A stretch of DNA of 64,000 nucleotides, taken from positions 4,497,501 to 4,561,500 of the forward strand of contig CP070233.1 in the NCBI GenBank assembly GCA_017355425.1, written 5' to 3'. This DNA is from Dolichospermum sp. DET69 (GTDB lineage: Bacteria; Cyanobacteriota; Cyanobacteriia; Cyanobacteriales; Nostocaceae). The translations under genes were made by a program, and so were the position numbers. Numbering within the stretch: the stretch's first letter is position 1; each line of letters begins with the position of its first letter. Under the pieces are notes generated by a model. That model was not told the DNA's origin. It searched no databases and saw only the letters and a program-made list of their open reading frames with translations. Below, in pieces: positions 25,596-36,511 of the stretch.

Positions 25596-25719
25596 GAATA
25601 ATTATGGGTACGAAACCAAAGCTCAAAAGCGGGGAACAAAAGGGGGCATACAACAAACAATACATACCCTTGGGGATCTCTAAAAGAGATTGCGTGAGTG
25701 GTGATTTTAGGTACTTACT

Positions 25720-25884
25720 TGTAGCGACCTGCAATTATAAATGCCCAAACCTGCAATCAAGGGATTTTCAAACCAGGATTAAATGCAACTATAATTACAC
25801 TTCAACCAGAATTAATTGCAACTGAACCAGGATTAATTGCAACCAACCTGCAATCATCGCTTTCAACCAGGATTAATTGCAACT
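25720..25884 (+). repeat. transposon left end with four transposase-binding-type repeats
   Basis: Four direct copies of a 20-bp motif (consensus AACCAGGATTAATTGCAACT) lie at 25771-25790, 25804-25823, 25825-25844 and 25865-25884. Three shorter ACCTGCAAT boxes lie at about 25727, 25750 and 25846. Arrays like this are the TnsB/MuA-type binding sites of this transposon group. The role here is inferred from position and from the mirrored array at the other end. Confidence 0.85.
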
Positions 25885-25920
25885 ATAAATATTAACATTT
25901 TTATCGCAGTTTCAATCCGC

Positions 25921-26892
25921 TCAAAGTGGCAGTCCCGCCGCCAACATTTGCTCGTGTAATTCACGAGATCGCGCTGGGTCAAGTTGTCGGCGAAACAGCA
26001 ATTTAATTTCCGCTGGTTTGGCATTAAACTGTTCTGCCAAGCCTCTTACATCGTAGCCATGCCGGGTTAAGGTGGGTTCCAAATCGTCAATTTGCTTAGA
26101 TAAAACCGACTCAATAATCGCTGTGGTAACTGTTTTTTCTCCAAAAAGGTATGCAGCCTCGAAAGCTAGTGTCAAATGTTGCTCAATTTGCAATGGTGTC
26201 CTCAACCGCGTGGCAAGTAAGTCAATGGCATCCGGCTCCAATATGTCACTTATTTGGGTATCTTCAGTAGTACATTTAGATACCAACCATTCAATATATT
26301 CTTTTTGGCTACCAACAATACCCTCCAAGGAAAAGACAGTTGCCCGATAGCCAATTTCTTCCATAGTTGGACGGCGCAAATCATTTTTCAGCTTCGGATG
26401 ACCAGCTAACACTACTGAGAGCGTACCACCACCGTCTTCAACTACCTCAATTAAACGTTTGAGTCCTGTAAGCGTACTGTAATGTAAGTCGTGAGCCTCA
26501 TCTACAAACAACGCCACAGGCTTTTTACCTTTTCTAATCAGGTCACGCAGTTCTCGTTCCCTTTTTTCCCCAAGTGCAGGAATTTTAATTTCCTTATCTG
26601 TTGATAAATCGTAAAATAAGGCAGCAATCAGTGTTGGCAGCGTCGCTCGGTTTTTATCAACAGAAAGCGATTTCGAGACTAAAATCTTGCCTTCTTTCTC
26701 CAAAACCTCAAACAAACGTCGTAAAGTCGTTGTCTTGCCACATCCGATAATTCCCGTAATGGCAACCAGCTTTCCTGAATGGATTGCGACTTTAATATCC
26801 TTAAACAATTGTTTTTGGTGTTCTGTCTCGTAGTAGCCAGCCTTGCGGAACTCCCTGAGTAACCGAAAGTGTTCCATGACTTCAGTGAGCAT
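25921..26892 (-). CDS. transposition AAA+ ATPase (TnsC/TniB-like)
   Basis: About 323 residues from the ATG at 26892, chosen because GGGAGAGG lies just upstream; the frame stays open 16 codons further. Walker A is GIIGCGKTTT (residues about 47-56) and Walker B is VALFVDEAHDL (about 126-136). TnsC/TniB proteins select target DNA and activate the transposase. The start overlaps the end of the transposase gene by 11 bases, so the two are translationally coupled. It is longer than the TnsC of type V-K CRISPR transposons and has a C-terminal region of unknown role (residues about 250-323). Confidence 0.9.
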   Translation of the reverse strand: MLTEVMEHFRLLREFRKAGYYETEHQKQLFKDIKVAIHSGKLVAITGIIGCGKTTTLRRLFEVLEKEGKILVSKSLSVDKNRATLPTLIAALFYDLSTDKEIKIPALGEKRERELRDLIRKGKKPVALFVDEAHDLHYSTLTGLKRLIEVVEDGGGTLSVVLAGHPKLKNDLRRPTMEEIGYRATVFSLEGIVGSQKEYIEWLVSKCTTEDTQISDILEPDAIDLLATRLRTPLQIEQHLTLAFEAAYLFGEKTVTTAIIESVLSKQIDDLEPTLTRHGYDVRGLAEQFNAKPAEIKLLFRRQLDPARSRELHEQMLAAGLPL

Positions 26893-28543
26893 TTTGTTCC
26901 TCTCCCTTATTTGAGCGGAAATATTGTCGCACTCGTTCAATAATCGCTTTTTTATTCAGAGTCTCAGCCAGCAGCGCATCAATGAATGCCAATTGTTCGG
27001 GAGACAATTTAGCCAAAGGTTTGGCCAGTTGTTCAGAAATCGCCCTCTTAGCAAACAATACAGTCGGATAAGTAAATTCTTGGTATGGGTCGGGGTCATT
27101 AAAAGGTGTAACAGTTGGCTCCAATTCCTTATATTTATCCACCAGAAATTGTAAGTCCGCGTTTTTATCCAAGGCAGTCCGTGGCAAACCCAACTTTTTA
27201 GCTAAATTGGCAATTTTATCTGCCCGTTCTTCAGTTTTAGTTTTCTTAAATTTACGGTAGCGGTGTAAGGGGATAGGTCCGTCAACTGGATAAAATGGTC
27301 CGTAACGACGGTCTTCTTTCTCTACGTACAGTTCGTTGTCAAACAAACCCCACCATAGCACGACAGTTTCTCCTGCTAAGTCCGGTTCTACCTCATAAGC
27401 CACACCCTCTACCGATACCCTAGCATCTGTTCCCACTTTTCTGCGTTGTGGCTCGCGGGCAAAGGTACAAAATCGCTCCCAACTACACATCGAACGTAAG
27501 CCAGACTTAGGTATATTACGCAACCAATCTTCCATCCGAGAATGCGGTTCTATGCGGTGTGGTTTGTCGTTGTAATGCAACAAATATTGGCGCAACCATA
27601 AGTTAGCTTCAATGTCGCTTTCCGGTTCATGAAAGTGATACAGAGTTTCGTGGGCTTCTTTGACTGTCCGAAAAGGTCTTTCCACTTTACCCTTGGATCG
27701 AGCTGTTACCCGGCGACCATCTTTACCCGCAGGCATATGGGTAACAAGATTGATTCTCAGACAATCCATCACGTTTTGAAATACGTGGCTTTTAGCAATG
27801 GGCCCGTTGTCGGTATAAATCATCTCTGGAATCCCCTGAAAGGCAAATCCGTCGGTTGTTTTCGCTGTCATCGCATTAAATAAGAACCGCAATGCAGCTT
27901 CCACATCCTCCCCATAAACACAGTGATATTCCTGATAACATAAACCACTACGGTCATCAACAATACTATAAAGCATCAGTAATGGATTCCCTCTCCCTGG
28001 TTCTACCCACGATGGCTGTTTTACGTGTTTTAAATCAGATGGGCTGAGGTCGAAATGCCAACATTCGTTGCTGTACTCCGCTTGAAAACGCACAGCAGGC
28101 GGTTGCCTAGTCATGCGTTGTTGGTCATACCCCCACGTTTTTAAGTAATAATTGACAGTGCTTCTAGTTAACGCACCTTTATCTGGTTGGACAAAACCAT
28201 CGGGTGTTTCCATCCCAAACTCCTCCAACAGTTCAATCGCTCGGACTGTGGAGATATGTCGCCCTTTCTTGTTACTAGTACGGATTTTCATGGCCGCGAT
28301 TATCTCGCAGTAACGTTCCATTTCCTCCAGCGAAAGTTTTCTAGGGGTTCCGCTATCTGAGCGATTTATGGATTTTGGGCGTGATGAGTTACGCAAAGCA
28401 CGATATAGTGTATCTGTTGACACTCCATACAATGCTGCTGTCTCTTCGATGAGAATTCGCCGCTCTTGACAACGGCTGGGCAATCCGTCGAGGCGGTGGC
28501 GTAAATTAATAAGTGCCTCTACAGGGATTTGCTTATGTACCAT
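26882..28543 (-). CDS. DDE transposase, TnsB/TniA/Mu-type
   Basis: This 553-residue transposase has an N-terminal helix-turn-helix (RILIEETAALYGVSTDTLYRAL). The retroviral-integrase fold follows, with catalytic Asp165 (CWHFDLSPSD), Asp245 (MIYTDNGPIAKS) and Glu288 (RSKGKVERPFRTVKE). After it come a Mu-type C-terminal beta domain (VGTDARVSVEGVAYEVEP) and a tail (residues about 490-553) that probably contacts the ATPase. It catalyses DNA cleavage and strand transfer of the element. It overlaps the resolvase gene by 11 bases at its start and the ATPase gene at its end. Confidence 0.93.
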   Translation of the reverse strand: MVHKQIPVEALINLRHRLDGLPSRCQERRILIEETAALYGVSTDTLYRALRNSSRPKSINRSDSGTPRKLSLEEMERYCEIIAAMKIRTSNKKGRHISTVRAIELLEEFGMETPDGFVQPDKGALTRSTVNYYLKTWGYDQQRMTRQPPAVRFQAEYSNECWHFDLSPSDLKHVKQPSWVEPGRGNPLLMLYSIVDDRSGLCYQEYHCVYGEDVEAALRFLFNAMTAKTTDGFAFQGIPEMIYTDNGPIAKSHVFQNVMDCLRINLVTHMPAGKDGRRVTARSKGKVERPFRTVKEAHETLYHFHEPESDIEANLWLRQYLLHYNDKPHRIEPHSRMEDWLRNIPKSGLRSMCSWERFCTFAREPQRRKVGTDARVSVEGVAYEVEPDLAGETVVLWWGLFDNELYVEKEDRRYGPFYPVDGPIPLHRYRKFKKTKTEERADKIANLAKKLGLPRTALDKNADLQFLVDKYKELEPTVTPFNDPDPYQEFTYPTVLFAKRAISEQLAKPLAKLSPEQLAFIDALLAETLNKKAIIERVRQYFRSNKGEEQNAH

Positions 28544-29102
28544 GTTCAGTTTTTATCTCTGCAATATAGTTGTAGAGCGTTGGTTTGGAAATTCCCATTA
28601 ACTTACATATTTCAATAATTGTGTATTGTTTTTCCGTATAAAGTCTTACTGCTAATTGACGTTTAGTTGGATCAAGGGCTTTTGGTCTACCTCCCCTATG
28701 ACCACGCACTCGTGCTGCTACAAGTCCAGCCGTCGTGCGTTCACGGATGAGGTTGCGCTCAAATTCAGCCAATGCACCGAATAAATGGAAAATCAATCTA
28801 CCACTGTTATTTGTGGTGGTGATGGATTCTTGCAAGCTAGAAAGCCCAATTCCTCGCTTATCCAAGGTTTCCATCATTGAAATCAGATCTTTGAGTGACC
28901 TTCCCAAGCGGTCTAGTCTCCATACAACCAAAACATCACCAGTCCTTGCTACTTCCAATGCCAAGGAGAGTCCAGGTCGTTCTGCTTTTGCACCGCTGAT
29001 TCGGTCGGAGTAAATTTTCTCGCAACCAGCCTGCTGCAAAGCATCCTTTTGCAGATTCAGATTTTGGTCATCTGTTGAAATGCGGGCATAGCCTATCAAC
29101 AT
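28533..29102 (-). CDS. serine resolvase/invertase (transposon resolvase)
   Basis: This 189-residue protein is a small serine recombinase: nucleophile Ser9 in GYARISTDDQNLNLQ, the conserved block VVWRLDRLGRSLKDL, the long E-helix (LAEFERNLIRERT) and a C-terminal helix-turn-helix (TIIEICKLMGISKPTLYNYI). In Tn3, Tn552 and Tn5053-like elements this enzyme resolves cointegrates at a res site beside its own gene. Its stop overlaps the transposase start, and a candidate res region lies just upstream. Confidence 0.93.
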   Translation of the reverse strand: MLIGYARISTDDQNLNLQKDALQQAGCEKIYSDRISGAKAERPGLSLALEVARTGDVLVVWRLDRLGRSLKDLISMMETLDKRGIGLSSLQESITTTNNSGRLIFHLFGALAEFERNLIRERTTAGLVAARVRGHRGGRPKALDPTKRQLAVRLYTEKQYTIIEICKLMGISKPTLYNYIAEIKTEHGT

Positions 29103-29125
29103 ACTTTGAACCCCAACAAGTAAAT

Positions 29126-29200
29126 AAACTCGTTACCTAACAGCATATATTGCCTTTGATATAATTACCGAGTTTCGTTACTAAACTTGATTCAGTTTTG
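29126..29200. other. candidate res (resolution) site
   Basis: The stretch directly upstream of the resolvase gene contains AAACTCG (29126-29132) and its inverse CGAGTTT (29169-29175), plus repeated GTTAC/GTTACT motifs. It lies between the resolvase start and the right-end repeat array, where res sites normally sit. The call rests on position and weak symmetry only. Confidence 0.35.
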
Positions 29201-29257
29201 GTTTTGTTTGATGGAAGTAATAGCGGTAAAAGAAACGACCGTTTTTTTTACCTTTAT

Positions 29258-29522
29258 AGTTGCATTTAATCCTGGCTGAAGTTCAAATAGTTTTGTTGAT
29301 AAATTGGGGTGTTTTTTGAGCAAACTGGACAACTACCGTTTGACGGGACTTTCGGTCAGTTGCAATTAATCCTGGTTGAAAGCGATGATTGCAGGTTGGT
29401 TGCATTTAATCCTGGTTCAGTTGCAGTTAATTCTGGTTCAAATGAAATTATAGTTGCAAATAATCCCGGTTTGAAAATGTCTTGATTGCAGGTTTGGGCA
29501 TTTATAATTGCAGGTCGCTACA
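29258..29522 (-). repeat. transposon right end with five transposase-binding-type repeats
   Basis: Five copies of the end motif, inverted relative to the left end, lie at 29258-29277, 29358-29377, 29398-29417, 29419-29438 and 29452-29471. The last 160 bases mirror the left end closely, including the terminal TATAATTGCAGGTCGCTACA. The innermost copy (29258) is 80 bases away from the others, so the two ends are asymmetric (four sites versus five), as in Tn7-like elements. Confidence 0.85.
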
Positions 29523-29573
29523 CTTACTGATAGCTTGCGTGGCGAAGCCATTCCCCACTAACCCCCTTAAAAA

Positions 29574-29720
29574 GCTCCGGTGTACACACAAGTGATTGAA
29601 TCGCCCCCTAACCCCCAAAATTGGGGGAACAAGAATTTTCAAAGTCCCCCAGAATTGGGGGATTTAGGGGGCGAAATAGGCCGAAACTAAGACAGGTAGG
29701 ACTTGTGTGTACACCGTAGC
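29574..29720. repeat. palindromic MITE-like element, copy A
   Basis: The 147-bp element has terminal inverted repeats GCTCCGGTGTACACACAAGT (29574) and ACTTGTGTGTACACCGTAGC (29701-29720). Its interior is made of CCCCCTAA/TTAGGGGG palindromes. The same ends bound a 168-bp copy at 40689-40856. No coding capacity is present. Both copies sit inside a CCCCCTTTTTAAGGGGG-rich context. Confidence 0.7.
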
Positions 29721-29834
29721 CTTAAAACGGGGGGAACTAGAGTCAAAGTCCCCCTTTTTAAGGGGGATTTATGAGGATCTGAAAATATTTGATACACCAT
29801 GAGAGACTTTTAAAATATCCTCTAAGACAAAAAC

Positions 29835-31640: not shown

Positions 31641-31687
31641 GATAATAATACTTTAAGCATTGCTAGTAATTACATAGAGTAAATTTG

Positions 31688-34600
31688 ATGAATACTATAA
31701 GAACATATTACATAAGCGCAGGTACTGCTGGTAACGATAGCAATGATGGACTCTCTACCTCATCGCCCTTCAAAACGATTCAAAAAGCGGCAAATCTCAC
31801 CAATCCGGGAGATACGGTATTCATTATGGATGGAGTATATGCAAATACTGATCCTCTTGGTGGAATAGTATCAATTACACGCTCTGGAACCTCAAATGCA
31901 CCCATTACTTATAAAGCATATCCTGGTCATTCCCCGAAGCTTCAGAGTAATGGCTGGAATGCGATCTCAATTACCAATGGAGCTTCTTATATCGAGATTA
32001 ACGGATTGGAGCTGATCGGGAACAATAGCAATATTACTTTTGCTTATGCACTTAGTCAAAAAGACAACCCTTACAATCCGACAACAAACGGCAACGGTAT
32101 CATTATTGATGGAAGGAAAAATGGTCATCCTCATCATATAAGTATTATTAATAATAAAATTCATGATTTCGGAGGGGGAGGTATTGCTACAATTCAAGCC
32201 GACTATGTGACTATAAATCGTAATGAAGTGTATAATAATGCTTGGTACTCTGTCTACGCTAACAGTGGTATTACTAATTACCAAAATTGGCGACTTGATA
32301 GTAGTCAGGGATATAAGATGATTATCTCAAACAATAAAGTTTACAATAATCGTCAATACATTCCCTGGTTTTATGGTGGTGGAAAAATTACTGATGGCAA
32401 TGGTATTAGTATTGATGATTCCAGAAATACGCAAAATGGGTCTACATTAGGTGCATATAGTGGACGGACTTTGGTAAAAAACAATATCGTGTTTCAAAAT
32501 GGAGGTTCGGGGATTCACACCTATCAGAGCGATCATGTTGATATTGTTAATAACACCGCTTATTTAAATAGTCAAAGTCCAGAAATAGACTATGGAGAAA
32601 TATTTGCCAATTCCTCATCTGATGTCAAAATTATTAATAACATTCTCTACGCTATTTCTGGAAATAAGGTTAACAGCAATTATAATAATACAAACGTTAC
32701 ATATAACTATAACCTATACGCTAACAGTACCATTATACCAGTTAAAGGTACTAATGATATTGTCGCCAACCCTCAGTTTGTAAATGCCTCAATTGGGGAT
32801 TTTCAACTTCACTCCACTAGTCCAGCAATTGACAAGGGTTTTGTGTGGACAGTTTTAACAACCGATTTTGCAGGTAACCCTCGTCCATCTGGCGCTGGGT
32901 ATGATATTGGTGCATTTGAGGCAAATATTCTCACAGGTGGAGCAGGTAATGATACCCTTACAGGTGGAGCAGGTAATGATACGCTCGATGGTAAAGCAGG
33001 TGCAGATACCATGATTGGTGGGGGTGGTAATGATTCCTACTATGTTGATAATATCGGGGATATTATCACAGAAAATCTGAATGAAGGAACTGATACAGTT
33101 TTCAGTCCAGTTAATTACACCTTAGGAAGTAACCTAGAAAACCTAATTTTACAAGGTACATCTGCTATTAATGGGACTGGTAACGCCCTAAATAATCTCA
33201 TTACAGGTAACACTGCTGATAATATTCTCATAGGCGGAGCAGGTACAGATACCATGATTGGTGGGGGTGGTAATGATTCCTACTATGTTGATAATTCCGG
33301 TGATATTATCACAGAAAATCTGAATGAAGGAACTGATAAAGTTTTCAGTCCAGTTAATTACACCTTAGGAAGTAACCTAGAAAACCTAATTTTACAAGGT
33401 ACATCTGCTATTAATGGGACTGGTAACGCCCTAAATAATCTCATTACAGGTAACACTGCTGATAATATTCTCATAGGCGGAGCAGGTACAGATACCATGA
33501 TTGGTGGTGCTGGTAATGATTCCTACTATGTTGATAATTCCGGTGATATTATCACAGAAAATCTGAATGAAGGAACTGATAAAGTTTTCAGTCCAGTTAA
33601 TTACACCTTAAGTAGTAACCTAGAAAATCTAACTTTACAAGGCACATCTGCTATTAATGGGACTGGTAACGCCCTAAATAATCTCATTATAGGTAACACT
33701 GCTGATAATATTCTCATAGGCGGAGCAGGTACAGATACCATGATTGGTGGGGGTGGTAATGATTCCTACTATGTTGATAATTCCGGTGATATTATCACAG
33801 AAAATCTGAATGAAGGAACTGATATAGTTTTCAGTCCAGTTAATTACACCTTAAGTAGTAACCTAGAAAATCTAACTTTACAAGGCACATCTGCTATTAA
33901 TGGGACTGGTAACGCCCTAAATAATCTCATTACAGGTAACACTGCTGATAATATTCTCATAGGCGGAGCAGGTACAGATACCATGATTGGTGGGGGTGGT
34001 AATGATTCCTACTATGTTGATAATTCCGGTGATATTATCACAGAAAATCTGAATGAAGGAACTGATATAGTTTTCAGTCCAGTTAATTACACCTTAAGTA
34101 GTAACCTAGAAAATCTAACTTTACAAGGCACATCTGCTATTAATGGGACTGGTAACGCCCTAAATAATCTCATTACAGGTAACACTGCTGATAATATTCT
34201 CATAGGCGGAGCAGGTACAGATACCATGATTGGTGGGGGTGGTAATGATTCCTACTATGTTGATAATTCCGGTGATATTATCACAGAAAATCTGAATGAA
34301 GGAACTGATATAGTTTTCAGCACAGTTAGCTACACATTAGGAAATAACCTAGAAAATCTAACTTTACAAGGCACATCTGCTATTAATGCTACTGGTAATG
34401 CCCTTAATAATCTCATTATAGGTAATACTGCTGCTAATATTCTCATAGGTGGAGAAGGTGCAGATACCATGATTGGTGGGGGTGGTAATGATTCCTACTA
34501 TGTTGATAATTCCGGTGATATTATCACAGAAAATCTGAATGAAGGAACTGATACAGTTTTCAGCACAGTTAGCTACACATTAGGAAATAACCTAGAAAAT

Positions 34601-36511
34601 CTAACTTTACAAGGCACATCTGCTATTAATGCTACTGGTAATGCCCTTAATAATCTCATTATAGGTAATACTGCTGCTAATATTCTCATAGGTGGAGAAG
34701 GTGCAGATACCATGATTGGTGGCGCTGGTAATGATATTATGATTGGTGGGGGTGGTAATGATTCCTACTATGTTGATAATTCCGGTGATATTATCACAGA
34801 AAATCTGAATGAAGGAACTGATACAGTTTTCAGCACAGTTAGCTACACATTAGGAAATAACCTAGAAAATCTAACTTTACAAGGCACATCTGCTATTAAT
34901 GGGACTGGTAACGCCCTAAATAATCTCATTACAGGTAACACTGCTGATAATATTCTCATAGGCGGAGCAGGTACAGATACCATGATTGGTGGTGCTGGTA
35001 ATGATTCCTACTATGTTGATAATTCCGGTGATATTATCACAGAAAATCTGAATGAAGGAACTGATACAGTTTTCAGCACAGTTAGCTACACCTTAAGTAG
35101 TAACCTAGAAAATCTAACTTTACAAGGCACATCTGCTATTAATGGTACTGGTAATGCCCTAAATAATCTCATTATAGGTAACACTGCTGATAATATTCTC
35201 ATAGGCGGAGCAGGTACAGATACCATGATTGGTGGTGCTGGTAATGATTCCTACTATGTTGATAATTCCGGTGATATTATCACAGAAAATCTGAATGAAG
35301 GAACTGATAAAGTTTTCAGTCCAGTTAATTACACCTTAAGTAGTAACCTAGAAAATCTAACTTTACAAGGCACATCTGCTATTAATGGGACTGGTAACGC
35401 CCTAAATAATCTCATTATAGGTAACACTGCTGATAATATTCTCATAGGCGGAGCAGGTACAGATACCATAATTGGTGGTGCTGGTAATGATTCCTACTAT
35501 GTTGATAATTCCGGTGATATTATCACAGAAAATCTGAATGAAGGAACTGATAAAGTTTTCAGTCCAGTTAATTACACCTTAAGTAGTAACCTAGAAAATC
35601 TAACTTTACAAGGCACATCTGCTATTAATGGGACTGGTAACGCCCTAAATAATCTCATTATAGGTAACACTGCTGATAATATTCTCATAGGCGGAGCAGG
35701 TACAGATACCATGATTGGTGGGGGTGGTAATGATTCCTACTATGTTGATAATTCCGGTGATATTATCACAGAAAATCTGAATGAAGGAACTGATAAAGTT
35801 TTCAGTCCAGTTAATTACACCTTAAGTAGTAACCTAGAAAATCTAACTTTACAAGGCACATCTGCTATTAATGGGACTGGTAACGCCCTAAATAATCTCA
35901 TTATAGGTAACACTGCTGATAATATTCTCATAGGCGGAGCAGGTACAGATACCATGATTGGTGGTGCTGGTAATGATTCCTACTATGTTGATAATTCCGG
36001 TGATATTATCACAGAAAATCTGAATGAAGGAACTGATAAAGTTTTCAGTCCAGTTAATTACACCTTAAGTAGTAACCTAGAAAATCTAACTTTACAAGGC
36101 ACATCTGCTATTAATGGGACTGGTAACGCCCTAAATAATCTCATTATAGGTAACACTGCTGCTAATATTCTCACAGGTGGTGTAGGTAATGATACGATCT
36201 ATTTAGGTTTAAACGATGGTTCTGTAGATATTGTTAATTATGCTTTAAATGTAAATGATGGGTCAGATTTGGTTTATCAGTTTGTGCGCGGTGTTGGTGG
36301 TGATAAAATTCAGTTTACAGGGGTTGCTAATATTGATGTTGTAACATCAGGTGCTAATACTATGCTACGCATTGGTGATGGTATTATGAGTAATACTGGT
36401 TTTGGAACTGGTCAGTTATTAGTTACTTTATCAGGTATAACTGGCTTTACTGCTACTGATATTAATGTCAACCTGTTTGGTAGTGTTGGTACTAACTTCT
36501 TGTTTAGTTAA
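31688..36511 (+). CDS. giant RTX calcium-binding protein with right-handed beta-helix domain
   Basis: About 1607 residues. Residues 1-410 form a right-handed beta-helix domain of the polysaccharide-lyase-like type (YYISAGTAGNDSNDGLS start, FKTIQKAANLTNPGDTVFI, ending SPAIDKGFVW and PSGAGYDIGAFE). Then come RTX nonapeptides (GGAGNDTLTGGAGND) and thirteen 81-residue units, each with GGxGxDTMIGG, NDSYYVDN and LENL blocks. A C-terminal cap of about 110 residues follows. There is no N-terminal signal peptide; RTX proteins leave through type I secretion using a C-terminal signal, which fits. ATG at 31688 is preferred over an upstream TTG. A surface or matrix polysaccharide role is inference. Confidence 0.88.
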   Translation: MNTIRTYYISAGTAGNDSNDGLSTSSPFKTIQKAANLTNPGDTVFIMDGVYANTDPLGGIVSITRSGTSNAPITYKAYPGHSPKLQSNGWNAISITNGASYIEINGLELIGNNSNITFAYALSQKDNPYNPTTNGNGIIIDGRKNGHPHHISIINNKIHDFGGGGIATIQADYVTINRNEVYNNAWYSVYANSGITNYQNWRLDSSQGYKMIISNNKVYNNRQYIPWFYGGGKITDGNGISIDDSRNTQNGSTLGAYSGRTLVKNNIVFQNGGSGIHTYQSDHVDIVNNTAYLNSQSPEIDYGEIFANSSSDVKIINNILYAISGNKVNSNYNNTNVTYNYNLYANSTIIPVKGTNDIVANPQFVNASIGDFQLHSTSPAIDKGFVWTVLTTDFAGNPRPSGAGYDIGAFEANILTGGAGNDTLTGGAGNDTLDGKAGADTMIGGGGNDSYYVDNIGDIITENLNEGTDTVFSPVNYTLGSNLENLILQGTSAINGTGNALNNLITGNTADNILIGGAGTDTMIGGGGNDSYYVDNSGDIITENLNEGTDKVFSPVNYTLGSNLENLILQGTSAINGTGNALNNLITGNTADNILIGGAGTDTMIGGAGNDSYYVDNSGDIITENLNEGTDKVFSPVNYTLSSNLENLTLQGTSAINGTGNALNNLIIGNTADNILIGGAGTDTMIGGGGNDSYYVDNSGDIITENLNEGTDIVFSPVNYTLSSNLENLTLQGTSAINGTGNALNNLITGNTADNILIGGAGTDTMIGGGGNDSYYVDNSGDIITENLNEGTDIVFSPVNYTLSSNLENLTLQGTSAINGTGNALNNLITGNTADNILIGGAGTDTMIGGGGNDSYYVDNSGDIITENLNEGTDIVFSTVSYTLGNNLENLTLQGTSAINATGNALNNLIIGNTAANILIGGEGADTMIGGGGNDSYYVDNSGDIITENLNEGTDTVFSTVSYTLGNNLENLTLQGTSAINATGNALNNLIIGNTAANILIGGEGADTMIGGAGNDIMIGGGGNDSYYVDNSGDIITENLNEGTDTVFSTVSYTLGNNLENLTLQGTSAINGTGNALNNLITGNTADNILIGGAGTDTMIGGAGNDSYYVDNSGDIITENLNEGTDTVFSTVSYTLSSNLENLTLQGTSAINGTGNALNNLIIGNTADNILIGGAGTDTMIGGAGNDSYYVDNSGDIITENLNEGTDKVFSPVNYTLSSNLENLTLQGTSAINGTGNALNNLIIGNTADNILIGGAGTDTIIGGAGNDSYYVDNSGDIITENLNEGTDKVFSPVNYTLSSNLENLTLQGTSAINGTGNALNNLIIGNTADNILIGGAGTDTMIGGGGNDSYYVDNSGDIITENLNEGTDKVFSPVNYTLSSNLENLTLQGTSAINGTGNALNNLIIGNTADNILIGGAGTDTMIGGAGNDSYYVDNSGDIITENLNEGTDKVFSPVNYTLSSNLENLTLQGTSAINGTGNALNNLIIGNTAANILTGGVGNDTIYLGLNDGSVDIVNYALNVNDGSDLVYQFVRGVGGDKIQFTGVANIDVVTSGANTMLRIGDGIMSNTGFGTGQLLVTLSGITGFTATDINVNLFGSVGTNFLFS
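33000..36180 (+). repeat. thirteen tandem 243-bp coding repeats in the RTX gene
   Basis: Each unit encodes 81 residues and units differ at few bases. Three unit types can be told apart (FSPVNYTLGS, FSPVNYTLSS and FSTVSYTLGN). The eighth unit carries a 27-bp insertion that adds one RTX nonapeptide (GAGNDIMIG). Type patches next to each other suggest unequal crossing over and gene conversion. An array this uniform is prone to assembly error. Confidence 0.9.

Follow-up and report, generated by a model that had tools for sequence, protein, structure and literature searches.

Anatomy of the element

The DNA analysed here, called the window below, is a stretch of 64,000 nucleotides from Dolichospermum sp. 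DET69 (contig CP070233.1, positions 4,497,501 to 4,561,500), and its positions 25720-29522 form one mobile element of 3,803 bp with three genes (Table 1). Read on the - strand, these genes encode a resolvase, a transposase and an ATPase in that order, each neighbouring pair overlapping by 11 nt; the start codon of the ATPase was set after the annotated homologue of Anabaena cylindrica. A preliminary description of the locus had reported matching ends within a CTTACT duplication, three intact overlapping genes (resolvase, DDE transposase and AAA ATPase) and nine copies of a 20-bp motif, four on the left and five on the right, all of which holds, although the matched ends reach far beyond the 10 bp given there. 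The terminal inverted arms measure 165 nt each and are 94% complementary, and the 6-bp duplication flanks the element on both sides. Counted at 15 or more of 20 matching positions, the 20-bp motif (about CCAGGATTAATTGCAACTAT) is confined to the left 200 bp and the right 300 bp of the element; no copy was found in the 3,303-bp body (both strands searched) or in window positions 1-25000 (+ strand searched). A shorter AACCTGCAAT-type repeat also recurs within each end. The host genome, 6.04 Mb in two contigs, holds a single copy of the element. The 16-nt element end, with up to two mismatches, occurs at three more places in this genome (TGTTTCGACCTGCAAT), which look like another repeat because all three share the outer hexamer AGACAT and none has an inverted partner within about 1.5 kb. 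Scans for promoters and terminators gave no excess over shuffled sequence (9 against 7.0 and 4 against 3.6, respectively).

Table 1. Features of the element and its immediate borders, in window positions.
Feature	Position	Strand	Remarks
Left target duplication	25714..25719	.	CTTACT; AGTAAG in the element's reading direction (NNTANN)
Left terminal inverted repeat	25720..25884	+	165 nt; starts TGTAGCGACC; 4 copies of the 20-bp motif
AAA ATPase	25921..26892	-	323 aa; likely binds the target and activates the transposase
DDE transposase	26882..28543	-	553 aa; putative catalytic D165, D245, E288
Serine resolvase	28533..29102	-	189 aa
Putative accessory part of res site	29122..29181	-	inverted GTAACGAAACTCGGTAAT / GTAACGAGTTT motifs
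Putative res site I	29226..29251	-	palindrome with AAACGNNCGTTT core
Fifth right-end copy of the 20-bp motif	29256..29275	-	adjoins res site I; outside the 165-nt repeat
Right terminal inverted repeat	29358..29522	-	165 nt; 4 copies of the 20-bp motif
Right target duplication	29523..29528	.	CTTACT

The three proteins

What kind of transposase drives this element? The protein has no Pfam match at a threshold of 0.001, and among its relatives (n=36, E up to 1) 32 match Mu-transpos_C_2 and 29 match rve. The IS481 model (NCBIfam NF033577) matches all 36 members and the IS21 model 34 of them; for the window's own transposase both scores are sub-threshold (77.6 bits with a cut-off of 224 for IS481, 26.5 bits with a cut-off of 160 for IS21). 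Residues D165, D245 and E288 are invariant in 36/36 relatives and would form the catalytic triad. In a predicted structure of moderate confidence (pLDDT 69.6, pTM 0.39), both termini appear helical, with a mixed core at about residues 160-300 and a segment rich in strands at about 366-417 between them. When compared with solved structures, only retroviral integrases match (best E 0.0012), and no TnsB, MuA or IstA is found by sequence among the 25 matches at E up to 1. For the ATPase, the AAA_22 and AAA_16 models score above cut-off and TIGR03015, the XrtA/PEP-CTERM ATPase model, below it; its matches among solved structures are generic P-loop proteins, with no TnsC in the best 60 of 109 sequence matches. 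The resolvase matches PF00239 (E 1.9e-45).

No TniQ profile match was obtained with any of the three proteins, in keeping with the preliminary description of a TniQ-less element, and the element holds no TnsA-like gene. The labels ‘Tn7’ and ‘TnsC-type’ used in the same description did not survive, as the closest models are those of IS481/IS21 for the transposase and the AAA_22/AAA_16 and XrtA/PEP-CTERM models for the ATPase, and both proteins resemble the A and B proteins of B3-like phages. In single pairwise comparisons with Beetrevirus PM105, A is 28% identical to the transposase over 414 aa (E 5e-24) and B is 25% identical to the ATPase over 254 aa (E 2e-10). Transposase matches were found in 53 of 50,697 phage records, 49 of them from Pseudomonas and none over 80% of its length.

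Relatives and distribution

With E 1e-20 as the threshold, matches are present in eleven of 386 sampled genomes of the phylum. Scanning genome contigs gave 154 candidate stretches; 147 were confirmed and 80 of these kept, mainly from cyanobacteria and proteobacteria, and 811 plasmid records matched, 614 of them over at least 80% of the query. The closest plasmid relatives at the DNA level lie on two Anabaena cylindrica plasmids (94.0% identical), and several at 56-64% identity encode homologous transposase, ATPase and often resolvase. Salmonella accounts for 391 and Klebsiella for 151 of the 811 records, with relatives about 56-58% identical (H66-H93) that are annotated as IS481 transposase plus ExeA family protein. 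Some relatives are annotated as IS481 family or ISAzs36, the latter name being attached to the ATPase gene in a relative from Nitrosomonas. ISAzs36 is named in excerpts of two papers, one of which reports such an element adjacent to mcr-9 on IncHI2 plasmids; no account of the mechanism of ISAzs36-like elements was found in the literature searches made. With its resolvase-transposase-ATPase module and homologous proteins, the element is a new member of this ISAzs36-like group, which is known here from database annotation and little described. Three proteobacterial relatives (L154, L155, L157) carry a fourth gene after the ATPase, of the UPF0149 family or hypothetical.

Genome G042 has five copies (L009, L017, L024, L136, L161; two on C1, two on C3 and one on C4) that lack transposase residues 194-254, including the putative catalytic D245. 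One of them, L161, is flanked by a perfect duplication, TTTACG, despite this deletion; these copies seem to be a defective derivative spread by help in trans. Nostoc CENA543 (G338) also holds five copies, one chromosomal and the others spread singly over four plasmids, so that four of the five sit on plasmids making up about 2.5% of the genome, in a case selected after inspection. This distribution may hint at target immunity or plasmid bias. As counter-cases to a plasmid preference, strain HT-58-2 has five of six copies on the chromosome, and the window's copy is chromosomal too.

Target site

How does such an element choose where to insert? The preliminary description had left this open, and the insertion sites of relatives now largely answer it as NNTANN. 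Ends were set by the end consensus alone, in five variants picked after inspecting an end finding guided by the target-site duplication, and 79 of 136 locus rows could be delineated, giving 71 distinct copies after removal of duplicates. The duplication-guided procedure was itself dropped for the counts, as it chose internal repeats at many loci and used the duplication in the choice. Flanking hexamers are identical in 30 of the 71 copies, differ by one base in 5 and by two or more in 36. All 30 perfect duplications read NNTANN, and so do 81 of the 82 flanks of the 41 copies with unequal flanks. TA occupies the central offset on 70/71 left and 71/71 right sides, compared with 0-8/71 at the other offsets tested, and the four identity classes give 38/38, 16/16, 59/60 and 28/28. 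The background of TA in those flanks is 781/14,552 (5.4%), so that a central TA in 111 of 112 has a binomial P of about 1e-139 if copies are treated as independent, though some share hosts.

Is the TA part of the element or of the target? It belongs to the target, because copies of the same element have differing outer bases. A C before or a G after the TA is found in 80/112 compared with 259/665 background TA sites (P about 3e-12), and the full CTAG core in only 11/112. Judged from these insertion sites, the target of the element's group is clearly NNTANN, with C before or G after the TA favoured. This flanking preference is like that of IS481, whose target is reported in excerpts of two papers as NCTAGN and once as CCTAAC (PMC3053399, PMC6794481). 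As the relatives insert almost only at a central TA, there is no evident need for a separate targeting protein of the Tn7 type.

TniQ in the host genomes

Could TniQ be supplied by the host? Three TniQ genes are present elsewhere in the window's genome, and about 0.93 Mb separates the window from the nearest of them. A TniQ match does not always accompany such elements: among 11 genomes with relatives there is a match in eight and none in three, and among 21 further genomes there is a match in 12 (11 over cut-off) and none in nine. One genome without a match, G109, is 99% complete and yet holds a copy with the perfect duplication TCTACG. Five of the nine others also carry a copy with a perfect duplication (L056, L067, L082, L086, L088); these genomes are mostly drafts or metagenome-assembled genomes by title, where absence is not proof. 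A DDE transposase works together with an ATPase in Mu- and B3-type systems, which are not known to have TniQ, so that its absence would be ordinary for the element's lineage.

Resolution and mode of movement

A palindrome with a AAACGNNCGTTT core lies upstream of the resolvase gene. It recurs with at least 11/12 matches in 45 of 60 non-redundant resolvase leaders, and in 43 of these 45 it stands 128-151 bp upstream of the start codon. In the window a second dyad is found between the palindrome and the gene, and the palindrome, as a hairpin, also scores terminator-like on the + strand. Together the two would make up a putative res site in which the palindrome looks like the crossover site. On plasmids of Nostoc ATCC 53789, five copies (L141-L145) carry, next to the transposase and in place of the serine resolvase, a tyrosine recombinase gene in divergent orientation, and the resolution module thus appears interchangeable.

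The unequal flanks of 41/71 copies would fit intramolecular copy-in events. Taken with the palindrome and the absence of TnsA, they are consistent with copy-in transposition via cointegrates; in the parts of two studies consulted, TnsA-less relatives are described as moving via cointegrates with serine or tyrosine resolvases (PMC11406308, PMC8649781).

Proposed mechanism and alternatives

We consider it probable that the element is a self-contained, replicative ISAzs36-like transposon allied to IS481 and to B3-like phages, which targets NNTANN without TniQ and has its cointegrates resolved at res. The proposal draws on the anatomy, the 6-bp duplication, NNTANN in relatives, the palindrome at its fixed place and the genomes that hold the element with no TniQ match, all read from sequence; from these we infer the reading of the TA by the transposase, the role of the ATPase, the cointegrate route and the function of res. 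The DDE transposase would bind the arrays of 20-bp sites in both ends, pair the ends and join them to a target with a 6-bp stagger and an obligatory central TA. The AAA ATPase would capture target DNA without a fixed address and activate strand transfer in a MuB-like manner, making TniQ unnecessary. Because there is no TnsA, the donor would not be cut free and a cointegrate would form, which the serine resolvase would resolve at the res site that separates its gene from the right end.

Several observations weigh against this proposal. Fifty-seven of the 136 locus rows were undelineated and dropped, many cut by contig ends, and one flank is an exception to NNTANN (ATAAGG, on the left of L048). 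The ATPase search matched only 3 of the 50,697 phage records. Given its three genomic TniQ genes, help in trans by a host TniQ is possible for the window's copy. The res pattern was scored on the sequences from which it had been derived, with single-base shuffles as control; 15 of the 60 leaders score below 11/12, and the survey covers resolvases down to about E 1e-20. Some of the unequal flanks in draft genomes may stem from assembly joins. Finally, a search for the empty site (GTACTTACTGATAGC) with the joined 300+300-nt flanks in 60 relatives gave no match spanning the join among the matches listed. The nearest candidate, in genome G048, shares 97% identity with the left flank but departs from it 66 bp short of the site.

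Which protein reads the TA? In Mu, an ATPase of this type influences where insertion occurs, and a strict TA could be set by the ATPase, or by DNA that it bends, an outcome that sequence alone cannot separate from reading by the transposase. We rate this as unlikely, though the most serious of the alternatives: the register at the joint is fixed to a single base, which fits an enzyme cutting there, and IS481 elements with NCTAGN or CCTAAC targets are, as far as the excerpts of the literature go, driven by a transposase alone. Cut-and-paste movement, with the resolvase as cargo or invertase, is less probable still. Perfect duplications alone are compatible with either route, but the element has no TnsA-like gene, many relatives keep the resolvase or have a tyrosine recombinase instead, the palindrome is conserved and unequal flanks are frequent.

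We give very little credence to the idea that the element is of Tn7 or Tn5053 type, has lost its tniQ and depends on a TniQ supplied in trans by the host. The TniQ genes of the window's genome and of 8/11 and 12/21 genomes with relatives would allow it; against it stand the 3/11 and 9/21 genomes with no match (several of the nine are drafts of unstated completeness), among them G109 with its perfect NNTANN duplication, and a transposase whose profile matches are IS481 and IS21, with no solved TnsB, MuA or IstA at E up to 1. Slighter again is the chance of a Tn5053-type hunter homing on resolvase sites. A Pseudomonas putida relative (L156) does adjoin a second resolvase gene, but it is undelineated and outside the flank count, and among 104 flanks of at least 1 kb, searched up to 2.5 kb so that distant resolvases would escape, only one (L083) adjoins a resolvase-like stretch similar to the window's. 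Of perfect insertions with enough context (n=19), 14 lie in open frames of at least 150 aa compared with 12.0 expected at random nearby TA sites, which shows no avoidance of genes and argues against res hunting as well.

We also entertain, though as less likely than not, the more specific idea of an ATPase-assisted replicative lineage between IS481 and B3/Mu-type phages, whose transposase reads a near-absolute central TA and whose ATPase would only capture the target, perhaps adding immunity and plasmid bias. If true, this would show that two letters are enough to direct AAA-guided transposition in the absence of a target adaptor, and such a state could plausibly have preceded systems in which adaptors such as TniQ were recruited. 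Why would a MuB-like ATPase be kept if the transposase reads the TA? This is the interesting remainder, and the element, small and with only three genes, offers a natural system in which to study the part of the ATPase without an adaptor. The target choice of a TniQ-less ATPase transposon becomes a testable rule, NNTANN, and an IS481-like target preference is linked with a Mu/B3-like ATPase partner, in a group whose members are also found on plasmids of clinical interest.

Comparison with known systems

Closest to the element are the ISAzs36-like ‘IS481 family’ elements with an AAA/ExeA ATPase, which encode homologous proteins and occur on IncHI2 and Salmonella plasmids. With the IS481 family proper (Bordetella pertussis IS481 and TnRErm46, as far as described in the excerpts consulted) it shares the best transposase model, TGT/ACA ends and a 6-bp duplication with central TA. 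It differs in its longer transposase, whose score stays well under the family cut-off, in the paired ATPase and resolvase, in long ends with site arrays and in the relaxed NNTANN.

B3-like transposable phages, represented by PM105, have homologous A and B genes that are adjacent as in the element, and one B3-like phage end starts TGTAGCG. Unlike these phages, with genomes of about 38 kb, the element has only 3.8 kb and three genes, lacks virion genes and adds a resolvase. The PM105 end had no match in the 298 genomes of the genus drawn. Partial accounts report a 6-bp duplication for B3 and call its transposase B3/Tn552 family; a B3-type prophage of Leptospira is reported, again in an excerpt, with the duplication AGATGG, which implies that that lineage has no strict TA rule.

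Tn552 encodes a transposase, an ATPase and a resolvase and is not known to encode a TniQ. This gene set is that of the element, and the likeness extends to the end arrays, in a comparison made by description rather than with the Tn552 sequence; its arrays of about 20-bp end repeats are reported in an excerpt. Tn7-like and Tn5053 elements likewise are described, in the parts consulted, with end arrays, an ATPase partner and, in TnsA-less members, a resolvase. The element differs from them in having neither TniQ nor TnsA, in its 6-bp duplication, theirs being 5 bp, and in showing no res hunting. It holds no TniQ/TnsD selector; an excerpt of Benler et al. gives a TniQ gene for 73-97% of Tn7-like transposons per clade, so that the gene is not universal there, and relatedness to TnsB and TnsC was not found by sequence (for TnsC, among the best 60 of 109 matches). 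Insertion at res sites, as in Tn5053/Tn402, is likewise not seen beyond the single flank in 104 and L156.

Insertion context

The clean duplication had been taken to argue for recent activity. This is plausible; the single copy, the best plasmid relative at 94.0% and the lack of an empty site among the 60 relatives searched lend it no support. The element sits directly beside a dispersed palindromic repeat in its right flank (window 29560-29780) that resembles a miniature inverted-repeat transposable element and has many partial matches in its own and related genomes. Farther along, window positions 31685-36511 hold a 1,608-aa open frame, mostly of repeated GGNDSYYVDN-type units, which adjoins an ADH gene.

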